The position numbers and the translations under genes are program-made. Shown one piece after another: positions 14,308 to 23,895 of a stretch of DNA of 64,000 nt. The DNA lies in contig RPFO01000164.1 of NCBI GenBank assembly GCA_009746045.1, positions 2,976,874-3,040,873 of the forward strand, given 5' to 3'. Source of the DNA: Mesostigma viride. Lineage: Eukaryota; Streptophyta; Mesostigmatophyceae; Mesostigmatales; Mesostigmataceae. The notes under the pieces were generated by a model. The model saw nothing but the letters and a program-made list of their open reading frames with translations, searched no databases and was not told the DNA's origin. How positions within the stretch are numbered: position 1 is the stretch's first letter; each line of letters opens with the position of its first letter.

Positions 14308-14428
14308 AAAAGATAATAAAGTCAATGAAACAGCCAGCACAGCTAGGCCAGAAATCAGGAGAATCCGGACCATGGTAGCTCGATCGAGCCTGCCGTTATC
14401 TTATCCACGTTTTCGAGTTGTTCAGGAT

Positions 14429-15895: not shown

Positions 15896-18339
15896 CATGC
15901 GTGGACGATAGGAATTATAGCACCGGCGGGCTTCAAAGTGCCGGACGGCAGGCGGTACCACCATTCCGTGGCAGCTTGGCCCAGTTTGCTACCGGCTGGC
16001 ACACGTTTTCAGTGAATTTTGGGCTCCAGATTTAAATGCAACGTGCGGTTTGAGGCAGGGGAAAACATGCGTGGACGATAGGAATTATAGCACCGGCGGG
16101 CTTCAAAGTGCCGGACGGCAGGCGGTACCACCATTCCGTGGCAGCTTGGCCCAGTTTGCTACCGGCTGGCACACGTTTTCAGTGAATTTTGGGCTCCAGA
16201 TTTAAATGCAACGTGCGGTTTGAGGCAGGGGAAAACATGCGTGGACGATAGGAATTATAGCACCGGCGGGCTTCAAAGTGCCGGACGGCAGGCGGTACCA
16301 CCATTCCGTGGCAGCTTGGCCCAGTTTGCTACCGGCTGGCACACGTTTTCAGTGAATTTTGGGCTCCAGATTTAAATGCAACGTGCGGTTTGAGGCAGGG
16401 GAAAACATGCGTGGACGATAGGAATTATAGCACCGGCGGGCTTCAAAGTGCCGGACGGCAGGCGGTACCACCATTCCGTGGCAGCTTGGCCCAGTTTGCT
16501 ACCGGCTGGCACACGTTTTCAGTGAATTTTGGGCTCCAGATTTAAATGCAACGTGCGGTTTGAGGCAGGGGAAAACATGCGTGGACGATAGGAATTATAG
16601 CACCGGCGGGCTTCAAAGTGCCGGACGGCAGGCGGTACCACCATTCCGTGGCAGCTTGGCCCAGTTTGCTACCGGCTGGCACACGTTTTCAGTGAATTTT
16701 GGGCTCCAGATTTAAATGCAACGTGCGGTTTGAGGCAGGGGAAAACATGCGTGGACGATAGGAATTATAGCACCGGCGGGCTTCAAAGTGCCGGACGGCA
16801 GGCGGTACCACCATTCCGTGGCAGCTTGGCCCAGTTTGCTACCGGCTGGCACACGTTTTCAGTGAATTTTGGGCTCCAGATTTAAATGCAACGTGCGGTT
16901 TGAGGCAGGGGAAAACATGCGTGGACGATAGGAATTATAGCACCGGCGGGCTTCAAAGTGCCGGACGGCAGGCGGTACCACCATTCCGTGGCAGCTTGGC
17001 CCAGTTTGCTACCGGCTGGCACACGTTTTCAGTGAATTTTGGGCTCCAGATTTAAATGCAACGTGCGGTTTGAGGCAGGGGAAAACATGCGTGGACGATA
17101 GGAATTATAGCACCGGCGGGCTTCAAAGTGCCGGACGGCAGGCGGTACCACCATTCCGTGGCAGCTTGGCCCAGTTTGCTACCGGCTGGCACACGTTTTC
17201 AGTGAATTTTGGGCTCCAGATTTAAATGCAACGTGCGGTTTGAGGCAGGGGAAAACATGCGTGGACGATAGGAATTATAGCACCGGCGGGCTTCAAAGTG
17301 CCGGACGGCAGGCGGTACCACCATTCCGTGGCAGCTTGGCCCAGTTTGCTACCGGCTGGCACACGTTTTCAGTGAATTTTGGGCTCCAGATTTAAATGCA
17401 ACGTGCGGTTTGAGGCAGGGGAAAACATGCGTGGACGATAGGAATTATAGCACCGGCGGGCTTCAAAGTGCCGGACGGCAGGCGGTACCACCATTCCGTG
17501 GCAGCTTGGCCCAGTTTGCTACCGGCTGGCACACGTTTTCAGTGAATTTTGGGCTCCAGATTTAAATGCAACGTGCGGTTTGAGGCAGGGGAAAACATGC
17601 GTGGACGATAGGAATTATAGCACCGGCGGGCTTCAAAGTGCCGGACGGCAGGCGGTACCACCATTCCGTGGCAGCTTGGCCCAGTTTGCTACCGGCTGGC
17701 ACACGTTTTCAGTGAATTTTGGGCTCCAGATTTAAATGCAACGTGCGGTTTGAGGCAGGGGAAAACATGCGTGGACGATAGGAATTATAGCACCGGCGGG
17801 CTTCAAAGTGCCGGACGGCAGGCGGTACCACCATTCCGTGGCAGCTTGGCCCAGTTTGCTACCGGCTGGCACACGTTTTCAGTGAATTTTGGGCTCCAGA
17901 TTTAAATGCAACGTGCGGTTTGAGGCAGGGGAAAACATGCGTGGACGATAGGAATTATAGCACCGGCGGGCTTCAAAGTGCCGGACGGCAGGCGGTACCA
18001 CCATTCCGTGGCAGCTTGGCCCAGTTTGCTACCGGCTGGCACACGTTTTCAGTGAATTTTGGGCTCCAGATTTAAATGCAACGTGCGGTTTGAGGCAGGG
18101 GAAAACATGCGTGGACGATAGGAATTATAGCACCGGCGGGCTTCAAAGTGCCGGACGGCAGGCGGTACCACCATTCCGTGGCAGCTTGGCCCAGTTTGCT
18201 ACCGGCTGGCACACGTTTTCAGTGAATTTTGGGCTCCAGATTTAAATGCAACGTGCGGTTTGAGGCAGGGGAAAACATGCGTGGACGATAGGAATTATAG
18301 CACCGGCGGGCTTCAAAGTGCCGGACGGCAGGCGGTACC
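15896..18339 (+). repeat. 14.4 copies of a 170-bp monomer at the 5' end of a LINE
   Basis: GTGGACGATAGGAATTATAG recurs exactly every 170 bp (15901, 16071, ... 18281). Copies appear identical by eye. The last, partial copy changes at 18340 into the unique leader of the LINE coding region. The first copy begins at CATGCG next to a TATA-like stretch. The arrangement resembles the tandem promoter monomers of some mammalian L1 elements. Confidence 0.9.
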
Positions 18340-18353
18340 GCGACCGCAGCGCG

Positions 18354-18405
18354 TTGGGGGGCTGCCGCCCCCCAAACCCCCCGCGTGGGGGGCTCCGCCC
18401 CCCAC
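18354..18405 (+). promoter_or_regulatory. Two consecutive GC-rich hairpins in the LINE leader
   Basis: Stem 1: TTGGGGGGC at 18354-18362 pairs with GCCCCCCAA at 18367-18375 (loop TGCC). Stem 2: GTGGGGGGC at 18385-18393 pairs with GCCCCCCAC at 18397-18405 (loop TCC). Both are perfect 9-bp stems about 40-90 nt before the putative start codon. Confidence 0.7.
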
Positions 18406-18447
18406 ACCCCCCGCCCCCCCCCTCGGTGGCTGCCACGCCTGCCCTGA

Positions 18448-18960
18448 TTGTTCATGGACGACCCACGACCCCCTTCGCCCAACGGCTCCCCCGCTCCCCG
18501 GTTGGCGCCTCGGCGGTCCTCTCGGCTTGCGGCCCTTCTTGCGGAGGTGGGCGACCCGGCTGCGGGGGGCTCGGGCGCCCCGGTCTCCCCCTCCTTGGTC
18601 TGCGAGGTCTGCCGGAGCGGGCACCGCGGGCACCACATGTTAGTTTGTGATGCTTGCAATTCCGGGTGGCACTTGCAGTGTCTTACTCCCCGGCTCTACC
18701 GGGTCCCGCCGGGCTCCTGGACGTGCCCGCGCTGTCCCCCCCGGCGGGCCCCCGGGCTGCCCTCCCCGCTGGGTGCTCCGGCCCCCTGCCCCGTGTGCCC
18801 CCCTGCCGAGGCCCTCGGGGCGGGCCGTGGCCTGCCCGATGGGGCCGCCGTTGCTCGGGCCCTGGCGCCCTCGGCCCCGGGGCCCCACCCGTCGCCTGGC
18901 CCCGCCGACGGGGGCGCGGCGCTGTCGCCTGGGCTGGGCCCGGCCGACCCCCGGCGGGCC
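18448..18960 (+). CDS. LINE ORF segment: PHD finger
   Basis: The frame starting at 18448 encodes C-x2-C-x8-(H/C) spacing typical of a PHD C4HC3 finger: CEVCRSGHRGHHMLVC, then DACNSGWHLQCL, then W-T-CPRCPPR. The aromatic Trp before the sixth and seventh ligands and the W two residues before the last CxxC are both present. PHD fingers bind histone H3 tails; in a LINE this could steer integration or silence-evasion (inference). The frame continues open to 19236 but loses protein-like character near 18950. Confidence 0.85.
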
Positions 18961-21900
18961 TGGCGACCCCGGCGCCCGCCCCCGGCCCCTCGCTCCCCGA
19001 CGCTCTGGCCTCCCTTCCCCCGGCCGCGGTTGGCCACCCAGCCGCCACCCCCGTCCTTGCCGCGTGGGACGGCGGCCCCCGGGCCCACGCGTTCACCTCG
19101 TGGCCGCCCTCGCACATTGTCGGCGTGGTGGGCCGCGCCACCTTTTCTTGGGCGTACTGCCCTTTGTTGCTGGACGCGGTCGGGTTCCAGGCCGCCTTCC
19201 CCTCGCTCCCTAGGCCCCCGGCCTTCCTGGCCCTAGTTGCGCGGGTGCGGGCGACATTTCTTTCCGCCGCCCCCCGGTGACGGCCTCGACTCTTTGGGGG
19301 TATGTCTTGGAAGGATATCACGCCGGCTGCCGGCTGCCGTGGCATCTCCCGGCCGCCCGGCAGGAAGAGCTGCTTTCCCTGGACGAGCGGGTGGGTCAGG
19401 AGGTGGTCGAGTTCGTCACGGCGGTGGCTCGAGACGCACAGGTCTCGGTGCGGGCGGCCTACCTCGCGGGCGGCGCCGACCTGGGCCTCATGTCCCCGCG
19501 GCAGCTTCGCCTCTTCTTGGACGCCCAGGCCCCGCCTCCCGGCCCGGTTGCCAGTGGGGGCTTTCTCATCACCTCCCTCAGCCTGGCGCAGGCCGCCATG
19601 CTGCGTGTGGAGTTCGGGGCCCCCATCGCGGTTCAGGGCGGCCAGGCCATCTTGGTGGACTCGGCCGGGCGCGCCCAGCCCCTAACCGCGGGGACGCCTG
19701 TTTCTGCCTTCCTCCACGACATCCTGGAGTTGGCAGGCATCCCGCACGAATGGCACCCCGCGGCTGACCAACCGGTCGGCATCCTCTCGCGCGCCCAGAT
19801 TGCTGCTCTCCCGGGTTGCTGGGAGGCCGGCTGGGACCCGCCCCCCCTCATGTCCGGTCCCTTCTGGAGGGGGACGACCCCGAGTCGGGCTCCTGTGCCA
19901 TCTGCCTTGAGCCCTTCCGGCCGGGGGATGGCTTGTGTCGCCTGCCCGCGTGCGGCCACACATTCCATCAAGCGTGCATCGCGCGCAGCTTGCTCCACTC
20001 CGTGCCGCGCTGCCCGTTGTGCCGGGCTGTTGTGCCGCCCCCTGGGACTGCGCTTCCTCTCGGCCCGCCCCCGGTCTCGCTGGGTCCCCTGCCGGGTCCC
20101 CACCGGGCCCCGGGGCCAGCTGCCTCCCCGACCCCTCGGCCGCCGCCCCCGGCCTCGTTGCCGGGGCCTGGGGTGGTCGCGGGCGCGCTGGCGAGTCCCC
20201 CTGGGAGGGGCGCCGGCGTTCTCGATCCCCCTCCGCTGGGGGTCTCCCCGGTGGGCACTGCCTCCTCCGTGGCCCCGGCGGGCATGCCGGGCGCTGGTCG
20301 GGTCGTGGTGCGCGCGCCTGCCGGCCCGGCTGGGGAGACGCCGCAGGCCCCACGTCCTGCCTTTGCTGGCGCCGCTCCCCGCCACTCAGCGCCCGCCGAC
20401 GGCCTTCACCGGTGTGCCGTGCTGCTTCCCACGGGGTCCCCGTGTGCTGGTGTGTTCCACAACCGTAACCTCCTCTGCCAGCACCTTCGCGCTGTGCACC
20501 CCGATCTCGGCGCGGCGGATCTGCAGGCCATGAGCTGTTACCGGTGCCCGGAAGCTCACTGCCAGCGGGTGTACTCCATTCACGGGCGCGCTCAGCACGC
20601 GCGCGCCTGTGTTGCTCAACGGCCCCTCAACCGGCCAGCAGTCCCGGCCCCCTCCCCCCTCCCGCCTCGGCTCCCACCGGCTCCCAGCCCCCGCCGCCCG
20701 ACTACTCGGCCAGTTGGCGTTGGCTTGACACGGTTCCCTGGGATGCATGCGCCATCAACCCGACGTCTACCCTGACCGACCTCCCCCACCGCGCGCGTAG
20801 CCTTTTCGCGCAATGTGCAATCGTTTCTCTCCGGCGCATGCACGCCGCTCCGGACGACCCGCTGGGCTTTAAACTGCACATGGTGACCCCCCGCCTGCTC
20901 CTCACCCCTCTCGGGCGTGGTGTGCGCGGCCTCCAGGGTGCGGTTATTGCCCGTTGCCGACGCTTTCTGCAGGGGGACTGGGAGGGGCTGTTTGGCGTGC
21001 CGCCCCCGCGCACGGCCCGGCTGTCGGGGGAGGTCAACTTCGAGCGGGTGGCCGCCGACGTCATCCGCCTCGTCCGCGAGGGGCAGCTCAGCCGGGCCAT
21101 GACCCGCTTGGAAATGGCCAAGCTGGCCCCCGCCAATGCGGCTACCCTGGCGGCCTTGGAGGCTCTTCACCCTGCGGAGCCCGGATTCCAGCTGCCCGTG
21201 CCGGACCCCCTGCCGGCCCCCCTCCGGCTGGACCGCGACTGCTTCCTGGAGGTGATGCGTGCGGTCCCGCGGGCTTCCTCTACCGGGCCGTCGGGCTGGC
21301 GCTACGAGCACTTGGAGGTCCTGGTGGGGCATGGGGGCGAGGACATTCTCTTTGACACCCTCATTGACCTGGCGGCTGGTCGCGTTCCTCCCGCTGCGCG
21401 CGAGTGGTTAGCGGGCGCTCGCCTCCTCGCTCTGCTCAAGGGTGTCTTGCCCCCCCCGAGGGCAAGGTGCGCCCGATCGCCTGCGGTGAGGTGCTCCGCA
21501 AGCTCGTGGGCAAAGTGATCTGCCGCCAAAAGGCGCCCGAGCTCCGTGCCTTTTTCTGCCCGCCCCTCGCAGCGGGTGAGACCTCGGTGGCGGCCCAGCT
21601 GGGGGTGACGACTCCAGGCGGGGCGGATATCCTCATCCATTCGGTGCAGGCCTACCTCGAGGCCCACCCCACCCACGCTGTCGTCAAGGTCGACTGCCAC
21701 AACGCGTTCAACAGTCTGTCCCGCGCCAGCATGTTTGCGGCCGTCATGGAGTCCTTCGAGGACTTGTACGCTTGGACAGCCGTGTGCTACGGCCAGCCCG
21801 GCCAACTGGTTCACATCATGGAGGACGGCACTCGCGGCGGCCTGCTGTCGCGGTCGGGCACCCAGCAAGGGGACCCCCTGGGACCCCTGTACTTTGCCGC

Positions 21901-23614
21901 CCCCCTCCAGGGTTGCCTCCAAGCGGTCCATGCTGCCCACCCGGCGGTCGCTATTCAGGCCTACTTGGATGATATCTACCTTCTGGGCCCTGTGCCGGAC
22001 ACCACCGCGGCTCTGCTGGCACTGCAGACCGCGGTGGCCGACATCAACCTCCAGTTGACCCTGGCCAAGTGCGCGGTGTACTCGCCCCAAGGTGATTGCT
22101 CCGGCTTTCCGCCCCAGCTCTTGGGCCGGGACGAGCGCCTCCATGGGTTGGATGTCCTCGGCGTTCCGGTTGGCGACCCCGCGTTTGTCATCGATGCTCT
22201 GCGGGCCGCCCTCGAGGCACGCACTGAGGTACTGCCCTTGATTGCGCGCCTTCATGATTCGCAGACCAAGGGTCTGCTTCTGTGGTTTTGCGCTCACCCT
22301 CGCGTCGTTCACTGGCTCCGGGGCGCTCTTCCGGCTCAGGTCCGGCTGGCCGCCGAGGGCCACGACGAACGCATCCAGTCGGCCTTGGCGCAGCTGGTCC
22401 CGGGCCCCGACCTCCCGCCACATGCTATTCGCATTGCCTCCCTGCCTGCACGGATGGGTGGCTGCGGTCTGACTCGTGCCGCCCGGCTGGCCCCAGCAGC
22501 ATTTTTGGGCTCCGTCGCTCAGTCGTGGGCGGAAAGCTGCCGGCTCCTGCCCCTTTTGGCAACGGCAGCGCCTGACCTCCTGGACCCCAGCAGCCCTTTG
22601 CCCTTCGTCACCGCCATCCAGGAGGCCTATGCTGAGATCCAGCAGGCCTGTTCTCCCGTCCGTGCCGCTCAGGCGGTACAGCGCCACCTCCCTCGCGGCA
22701 CTCCCTCGGTCGCCTCCGTTCAATCTCCCGCCGCATTCCCTGCTCGCGTCATCGATAAACACCAGAAAACCTACGCGGGTATTCTGCACACGGCTGATTG
22801 GATTGCTCTTTTCGCGGACCTCAACGCCCAGGGACGTGCGTGGCTGTTCTCGCTTTCCTTGCGGAGTGTGGGCTCGGCGTACCTTCGTGCTCTTCCCATG
22901 GCCCCCCCATTCGCCTTGGCTCCCAGCCACTACTCGGTGGCGCTCCGGCACCAGCTATTTGCCCCGCAGCCTCTTGTTCCGGCCGGGCGGCCTTGTGGTA
23001 GCTGTGGGCAGCCGCTGGATCCCACGGGGACTCACTACCTTGCCTGCATGGGGGGCCAACAGAATCAGAATTGGTATTTGTATTTGCACACTGTCCTCCT
23101 GACGGTGGTGCTCGCCATGATTCGGTCGGTTTTCCCCCACGCGAACATCCGGTCCGAGGATGCGGATGGCGCTGCCTTCTATTCCCCCAACCACCGGCCT
23201 GACATCGTGGTGCTGGACTTTGAGGGGGGTGGCCGGCATCTGCTTATTGACGTTTCGGTGGCGCGGCCCTTGGCTCTTAGCCACGTGGCTGGGGCCTCCC
23301 TCACGGCAGGTTACACGGCGGACCGGGCGGAGCGGGCCAAGCTCCTGGCCTACGGCGACGTCGGGCACCATCGTGTGGTGCCCTTTGTCCTGGAGGAGTT
23401 TGGTGCCATGGGGCCCCTGACCTCCGCCTTCTTCAAGGAGTGTTGCCGGCTCCGGGAGGACCGGCTGGACCTGGAGGGCCAGCGGGCCCCATGGTCGGCG
23501 CGGACCTGGACGTCATATTGGCGTCAGCGCTTGTCGGTGGCGCTGACTCGGGCCATGGCTGACATCATGCTCCGCCGTACGCGGGCTGATTTTGCGGTGC
23601 AGCAGGGCTATTAG
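18448..23614 (+). CDS. LINE polyprotein: PHD, RING-H2, C2H2, reverse transcriptase, zinc knuckle, RLE nuclease (frame-shifted)
   Basis: Coding potential is continuous but changes frame about five times, always by the equivalent of one lost base. The candidate places are about 18930-18990, 19269-19275, 19840-19848, 20640-20670 and 21448-21456, mostly in C runs. Domains in order: PHD finger (about 18598-18745), uncharacterised region (about 18990-19840), RING-H2 (about 19889-20030), C2H2-like fingers (about 20400-20616), RT (about 21240-22200), CCHC zinc knuckle (about 22990-23050) and an RPD..D restriction-like endonuclease (about 23190-23260). The stop is at 23612-23614. If the shifts are sequence errors, the protein would be about 1,720 residues. 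The start at 18448 (MFMDDPR) is the first ATG after the leader. Confidence 0.75.
19277..19850 (+). CDS. LINE ORF segment: uncharacterised region before the RING finger
   Basis: The frame at 19277 reads protein-like up to about 19845 (e.g. LLSLDERVGQEVVEFVTAVA; FLITSLSLAQAAMLRVEFGA; FLHDILELAGIPHEW). I do not recognise the domain. The preceding 18990-19270 portion is coded in another frame (AHAFTSWPPSHIVGVVGRA) and also resembles no family I know. Confidence 0.55.
19816..20700 (+). CDS. LINE ORF segment: RING-H2 finger and C2H2-like zinc fingers
   Basis: RING-H2 ligands follow the canonical pattern: CAICLEPF, C-RLPACGHTFHQACI, then CPLCR. This is the form found in E3 ubiquitin ligases. A Pro/Gly-rich spacer of about 120 residues follows, then Cys/His clusters (CAVLLPTG-C...H..NLLCQHLRAVH; CYRCPEAHCQRVYSIHGRAQH) like C2H2 DNA-binding fingers at the N terminus of R2 elements. 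The frame decays after about 20640. Confidence 0.85.
20690..21456 (+). CDS. LINE ORF segment: RT N-terminal extension and first RT motifs
   Basis: This frame (open from 20544 to 21518) carries WLDTVPWDACAINP, many Leu/Arg-rich helices, and the RT motif STGPSGWRYEHLEVL at about 21276-21320, equivalent to the SPGPDG-type motif of R2 RTs. It breaks at the C8 run near 21450, where the next frame continues the fingers/palm region. Confidence 0.8.
21404..23614 (+). CDS. LINE ORF segment: RT palm, CCHC knuckle and restriction-like endonuclease
   Basis: RT motifs seen: VRPIACGEVLRKLVGK (motif 2); VVKVDCHNAFNSLS (motif A, catalytic Asp); SGTQQGDPLGPLYF (motif B); YLDD at 21962-21973 (motif C, Leu where most LINEs have Ala). 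Downstream CGSCGQPLDPTGTHYLAC forms a CCHC knuckle, followed by HRPDIVVLDF...HLLIDVSVARP, the (K/R)PD..D core of the PD-(D/E)XK nuclease of R2-type LINEs. No APE endonuclease was seen. The frame is intact over 736 codons. Confidence 0.9.
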   Translation: MVSGRSPPRSAQGCLAPPEGKVRPIACGEVLRKLVGKVICRQKAPELRAFFCPPLAAGETSVAAQLGVTTPGGADILIHSVQAYLEAHPTHAVVKVDCHNAFNSLSRASMFAAVMESFEDLYAWTAVCYGQPGQLVHIMEDGTRGGLLSRSGTQQGDPLGPLYFAAPLQGCLQAVHAAHPAVAIQAYLDDIYLLGPVPDTTAALLALQTAVADINLQLTLAKCAVYSPQGDCSGFPPQLLGRDERLHGLDVLGVPVGDPAFVIDALRAALEARTEVLPLIARLHDSQTKGLLLWFCAHPRVVHWLRGALPAQVRLAAEGHDERIQSALAQLVPGPDLPPHAIRIASLPARMGGCGLTRAARLAPAAFLGSVAQSWAESCRLLPLLATAAPDLLDPSSPLPFVTAIQEAYAEIQQACSPVRAAQAVQRHLPRGTPSVASVQSPAAFPARVIDKHQKTYAGILHTADWIALFADLNAQGRAWLFSLSLRSVGSAYLRALPMAPPFALAPSHYSVALRHQLFAPQPLVPAGRPCGSCGQPLDPTGTHYLACMGGQQNQNWYLYLHTVLLTVVLAMIRSVFPHANIRSEDADGAAFYSPNHRPDIVVLDFEGGGRHLLIDVSVARPLALSHVAGASLTAGYTADRAERAKLLAYGDVGHHRVVPFVLEEFGAMGPLTSAFFKECCRLREDRLDLEGQRAPWSARTWTSYWRQRLSVALTRAMADIMLRRTRADFAVQQGY

Positions 23615-23788
23615 GTTCCTCCCGTTAGGCGTTTCCATTGGTCTTATCGTAGTATAGAGCTTTGACATGGCTCTGTATATAGGTTTATAGCTGGGCGTTT
23701 GCTTTGGTTTGAGTGATTTCACTCTGCTGTAAGTAATTATATTTTTAATATATATATTCTGATTTATATATATTGTATATATATTGTT

Positions 23789-23895
23789 AAGGAGACAACC
23801 AGCGCAGGCCAGAAATCGGGAGAATCCGGACCATGGTAGCTCGAGCCTGCCGTTATCTTTCCCCGGCATTTTCGAGTCGTTCAGGATGATGACTA
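23789..23895. repeat. Dispersed repeat, copy 2, directly after the LINE AT-rich 3' region
   Basis: Same repeat as 14298-14640 without the inner insertion. Its first part, GACAACCAGCGCAGGCC, also recurs three times at 32850-32975 in a URB1 intron. Confidence 0.65.

Follow-up and report, generated by a model that had tools for sequence, protein, structure and literature searches.

Organization of the element

A 64,000-nucleotide stretch of the Mesostigma viride genome (contig RPFO01000164.1, positions 2,976,874 to 3,040,873), referred to here as the window, carries a long interspersed nuclear element (LINE) on its forward strand. An earlier note, made from the sequence alone, had placed at 18448..23614 a LINE that combines a PHD finger and a RING-H2 finger with C2H2 fingers, a reverse transcriptase (RT) and a restriction-like endonuclease (RLE). 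Those domains do lie there, but the element is longer than was proposed and extends beyond that interval on both sides, spanning approximately 15896-23748. The reading that we favor, on balance, is that of a recently active R2-like element of M. viride with a single open reading frame (ORF), about 7.9 kb in length in this copy. It would encode a protein of some 1,720 amino acids with the domain order PHD, middle region, RING-H2, two C2H2 fingers, RT, CCHC knuckle and RLE; we infer a promoter function for its 5' array, docking by the PHD finger and ubiquitination by the RING finger.

All features are on the forward strand. The element begins with a tandem array of 14.4 identical 170-bp units (15896..18339; Tandem Repeats Finder, 100% matches). 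A GC-rich leader, identified by direct reading, connects the array to the first ATG (18340..18453) and contains 30-bp repeats at 18350-18414. The protein starts in a frame 1 coding segment (18454..18948), delimited by a codon-usage frame map with a weak signal over the finger, and this segment contains the PHD finger (18601..18735). The middle region is made up of a frame 3 segment placed by the codon map (18951..19245), which is in one frame with the PHD finger in two other copies of the element (L062 and L063), and a frame 2 segment of no assigned fold that served to train the map (19274..19870). The RING-H2 finger follows in frame 1 (19894..20022), and upstream of the RT are two C2H2-type fingers (20413..20610), the first recognized by eye and the second by pattern. 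The RT region passes from frame 3 to frame 2 (20652..22500, the 3' limit being approximate) and is followed by the CCHC zinc knuckle (22994..23047), the RPD..D motif of the RLE (23195..23251), the stop codon (23612..23614), a 3' untranslated region that reaches the 3' end shared by the compared copies (23615..23748), and a TA-rich target flank (23749..23764).

The two N-terminal fingers were found at the place and on the strand given in the earlier note. The PHD finger has the C4HC3 ligand pattern and a significant profile match (Pfam E value, 2.3e-10), and a PDB sequence search matches it best to the PHD fingers of WSTF and of the KDM5 type (lowest E value, 4.7e-13, to WSTF). The RING finger has the C3H2C3 pattern, matches Pfam zf-RING_2 with an E value of 1.8e-11, and is closest in the PDB to Arkadia and EL5 (best E value, 2.2e-7, to Arkadia). 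The remaining domains were likewise borne out, by motifs, by RVT_1 (E value, 6.8e-11) and by an alignment of 15 proteins. QQGDPLGP occurs at 21863, YLDD at 21962, CCHC at 22994 and RPD..D at 23195, and both catalytic Asp residues of the RT and the CCHC ligands C543, C546, H556 and C560 (numbering of a 748-amino-acid ORF) are invariant in the alignment. The predicted fold of the RT-nuclease half is R2-like and could be aligned over about 600 residues to R2 structures, through to their C-terminal part. Pfam scans of the coding segments gave no match to an APE endonuclease, an RLE being present instead, and none to a Ulp1-like or other peptidase, the middle region having no assigned fold. That region had no PDB or Pfam match, and its single-sequence model (mean predicted local distance difference test score, 38.7) was uninformative; the query for this model extended beyond the coding frame and thereby included out-of-frame residues. 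With its YxDD RT, CCHC knuckle and RLE, N-terminal C2H2 fingers and signs of target-primed insertion, the element is an RLE-encoding, R2-like LINE.

Ends of the element and target site

Copies were sought in the 439.9-Mb assembly of 2,243 contigs, and 5' starts were determined for 31 copies, the window copy included. Eight run at their 5' side into the 170-bp array and 23 are 5' truncated; left out of this tally were L046, a stretch with no element sequence, and some loci from the RT search at which the fetched DNA ended inside the element. The array lies directly upstream in all eight copies that reach position 18340, the window copy included, and we therefore rejected the idea that it is an unrelated satellite. 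In this respect the element resembles mouse L1, whose promoter units are arranged in tandem. The whole PHD finger is spanned by 11 of these 31 copies and the whole RING finger by 23.

The 3' ends were compared in 30 fetched loci and the window copy, and all 31 share an end pattern, TTTTTAA in 29 and TTATTAA in 2 (L007 and L008). Within the next 10 bp, 26 of the 31 have ATATAT or TATATA, compared with 0.09% of 20,000 random window positions. Both flanks could be inspected in 15 truncated copies, of which six showed by eye clear target duplications of about 12 to 15 bp that include the TA stretch (L012, L013, L022, C224b, C446 and C557b), the exact length being uncertain inside AT runs. Duplications were partial or unclear in other truncated copies, none was seen in C1b and C255, and L001 was not parsed; the flanks of the window copy have only a short TA run in common. 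The common 3' end, the 5' truncations and the target duplications together support target-primed insertion. The 28S ribosomal DNA (rDNA) site of R2 is not used in any of the 31 copies compared at the 3' end, as their flanks are diverse, 26 with the TA stretch. In five cases (L018, L024, L025, L027 and L028), further partial copies of the same LINE adjoin the insertion in either orientation, consistent with insertion of the LINE into its own TA-rich tail.

Possible roles of the PHD and RING fingers

From the two N-terminal fingers, the earlier note suggested chromatin-guided target choice and ubiquitin-based control of a host or element factor. Of its interpretation, the architecture is supported, whereas chromatin reading by the PHD finger and ubiquitin-ligase activity of the RING finger are possible functions. 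A working sequence of events can be outlined in which the 5' tandem array would act as a promoter and the C2H2/RT/nuclease half would bind the RNA and, by nicking TA-rich DNA, start reverse transcription primed by the target. Histone H3 tails or another protein might serve the PHD finger as a docking place for the complex, and the RING finger may recruit a host E2 and, where the element inserts, ubiquitinate a histone, a host factor or the RING finger itself. A more specific but less likely version is a LINE with its own E3 ligase and histone reader, in which the PHD finger would dock the ribonucleoprotein at open TA-rich chromatin and the RING finger would license second-strand steps by ubiquitinating either histones or a host factor of repair or silencing, with a PHD–RING pairing like that of UHRF1 or TRIM28.

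It is also possible, though we would not put it at better than about one chance in three, that the zinc fingers are structural modules or bind nucleic acids or proteins, in ribonucleoprotein assembly or dimerization, and neither read histones nor ligate ubiquitin. In RING fingers, Ile, Pro and Trp residues contact the E2 and an Arg serves as linchpin; PHD readers of H3K4me0 have an acidic stretch, and known H3K4 readers have an aromatic cage. Measured by these rules, several features weigh against an active ligase and reader: the RING finger is without the usual E2-contacting Trp, and the PHD finger has neither the acidic stretch nor the aromatic cage. In addition, site choice follows a DNA motif and could be explained by the DNA-binding and nuclease part without the PHD finger, and Pfam scans detected neither finger in any of five relatives longer than 1,300 amino acids. 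On the other hand, the RING finger retains its full set of eight ligands, the Ile of the first loop, the Pro of CPxC and the Arg that follows the last Cys. Its best matches are E3 ligases, and those of the PHD finger are chromatin proteins.

Reading frame

The earlier note spoke of one LINE coding region. By codon usage, the coding signal of the window copy runs through six frame segments rather than one ORF, and continuity of the region is instead apparent from the overlapping frames of two other copies. The window frame switches at 18951, 19245, 19850, 20631 and 21447, and a poly-C run lies no more than about 30 bp from every one of these points. Copy L062 contains an unmended open frame of 776 amino acids that crosses the first three of these joints and includes the PHD finger, the middle region, the RING finger and both C2H2 fingers; its BLAST match covers residues 1-755 of the composite protein, the last few reflecting chance likeness beyond the fourth joint. 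An unmended frame of 1,280 amino acids in copy L064 crosses the last three joints and corresponds to composite residues 448-1731, from the RING finger to the end of the nuclease. C2H2 fingers, RT, CCHC knuckle and nuclease all lie in that one ORF. Since the L062 and L064 frames overlap, they make up one continuous protein.

Other observations speak against a single protein of this kind, or at least weaken the case for it. None of the fetched copies reads through all of the approximately 1,720 amino acids, and L062 and L064 were chosen for fetching because their frames were long. The PHD finger was in a stop-free frame of at least 695 amino acids in only 3 of the 150 PHD matches scored; two of the three were fetched, and only L062 reaches the RING finger in frame, L063 keeping the PHD finger in frame through the first two joints with the RING finger in another frame. 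Furthermore, codon usage gives a weak signal across the PHD and RING fingers, and copies as young as these would not yet reveal purifying selection.

The switches might be real, with several ORFs or programmed frameshifting at the poly-C runs, but we consider this unlikely. The PHD-bearing frame is only 246, 254, 262 or 276-277 amino acids long in 132 of the 150 scored copies, and the first joint is open in just 1 of 11 compared copies, as would suit such an arrangement. Against it, each of the five joints is open in L062 or L064, and all five window switches go in the same direction, as undercalled bases would give. In a comparison of 12 other copies with the window, which gave a total of 63 mismatches and 39 short indels, the joints were hit repeatedly by indels within C runs, and the poly-C indels vary among copies that are 99.5 to 99.97% identical to the window; at the 21449 joint, copies from the RT protein search are biased, because the query protein crossed it. 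The genome report for M. viride NIES-296 also describes a sequence for which PacBio reads, Illumina reads and optical mapping were combined, the published assembly being PacBio with Illumina polishing (PMC6947507).

Copies in the genome

The domains recur together and with little divergence. The 60 best of 8,199 RT candidates were scored, and all were 100% identical over 748 amino acids; the same was true over 78 amino acids of the 150 best of 585 RING candidates. For the PHD finger, the 150 best of 2,074 candidates, 3 of them with an internal stop, were 95 to 100% identical, which argues that the family moved recently. At least 83 of the 150 scored PHD matches are followed on their own strand by a RING finger, at a distance of 1,392 to 1,425 bp. 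The true number may be higher, as only 150 of the 585 RING candidates were scored, and the other 67 PHD matches are not negatives. A chance pairing of PHD and RING is thereby excluded.

Gathering other copies had been put forward in the earlier note as a check on whether the PHD and RING fingers are continuous with the RT; the continuity was upheld by this order and by the L062 and L064 frames. A neighboring host gene was rejected as the source of the fingers for the same two reasons, the order repeated in many copies and the open frames held in common. That the fingers are instead a host gene segment joined by accident to one copy or subfamily, outside the working element, is highly improbable: although no relative carrying the N-terminal module came to light beyond this genome, save one protein (P0028), and the look for a host parent covered the 150 best matches, PHD and RING keep their order in those 83 or more copies, open frames join PHD to C2H2 and RING to nuclease, and the array meets the same 5' junction in every copy that reaches it.

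P0028, from EukProt and labelled Prorocentrum lima, is 95% identical over the matched stretch, and in it the middle region and the RING finger follow each other in one frame. It is probably contamination, horizontal transfer being the alternative. A second EukProt protein is P0002, which bears the label Mesostigma viride (Mesvir1). It matches the 3' half of the element (86% over 57% of the query), the differences being mostly gaps by eye. Its gene model joins an Enkurin domain to the nuclease end of the element, either as an annotation artifact or as an exonized LINE, and it represents another locus, because the Enkurin part is absent from the window.

Relatives and known systems

The closest RTs are those of Cymbomonas tetramitiformis and of metagenome elements (P0001, P0003-P0007 and P0021-P0026), at 34 to 51% identity. 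The RT phylogeny called for by the earlier note was obtained as our own tree, drawn without Repbase/Dfam reference elements of the R2, R4, NeSL, CRE, HERO or Utopia clades. In it, the RT groups with the algal and metagenome relatives (support, 100/99) and is separate from the RTs of Diplonema; among the latter, P0020 is named SLACS by a source. These relatives share the RT/nuclease core, and Cymbomonas P0023 has by eye a similar C2H2 pair, but their Pfam scans differ in giving no PHD or RING, so that the N-terminal module may be lineage specific. The N termini of Cymbomonas P0021, P0023 and P0024 look Tudor-like by eye (no Pfam match; best PDB match, 7de9, E value, 0.41), and metagenome protein P0026 (2,200 amino acids), from a related RLE LINE, starts with an OTU deubiquitinase-type protease (Pfam E value, 2.5e-10). 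This suggests that, among related RLE LINEs, the N-terminal additions comprise domain types that attach ubiquitin (RING) as well as types that remove it (OTU). Scans found no relatives in viral contigs. Seven loci with distant LINE-like RT fragments (L055-L061) come from contigs that had been assigned to bacterial bins (Spartobacteria, Granulicella, Curvibacter and others) and are probably misbinned eukaryotic DNA; none of eight scanned frames from such loci in bacterial metagenome-assembled genomes had a PHD or RING at an E value of 0.05.

Like R2, of which Bombyx, zebra finch and turtle structures were compared, the Mesostigma element has a single protein with N-terminal C2H2-type fingers, RT, CCHC knuckle and RLE. 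It differs in adding a PHD finger, a middle region, a RING-H2 finger and the 5' tandem array, in inserting at TA-rich sites and not the 28S rDNA site, and in sequence, with about 16% identity. A PHD finger has been described in ORF1 of CR1 and L2 LINEs, but these have an APE nuclease and mostly two ORFs, and RING does not occur as a whole word in that source (PMC4120745). NeSL and Utopia are RLE LINEs with N-terminal zinc fingers, and those of nematodes carry an extra ubiquitin-like-pathway domain. According to the available text, however, they encode a Ulp1-like protease in place of a RING finger, have U2 or spliced-leader targets, and show no PHD finger (PMC4640811).

The earlier note knew of no R2-type LINE with both fingers, and our search of the open-access literature agrees, with no element of the same domain order and no LINE combining PHD, RING and RLE. 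Within the reach of that search, a PHD finger in an RLE LINE, a RING finger in any LINE, and the two together all appear undescribed. One candidate for an earlier RING report was rejected, as its "ring finger" is part of the RT hand (PMC5678591). If the RING finger is active, this would be a LINE whose one protein unites a ubiquitin ligase with the RT and nuclease, and it would allow direct inquiry into how target-primed reverse transcription is affected by ubiquitin and histone marks. The idea is testable, given many young copies and a single-celled streptophyte alga as a host that can be grown in culture.

Two further observations concern the neighborhood of the element. An approximately 85-bp repeat just outside the 3' flank (23806-23887) recurs with 87% identity 9 kb upstream, at 14345-14428. 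Farther downstream, on the reverse strand, an ORF at 24328-25278 matches the APH phosphotransferase family (E value, 3.4e-9).
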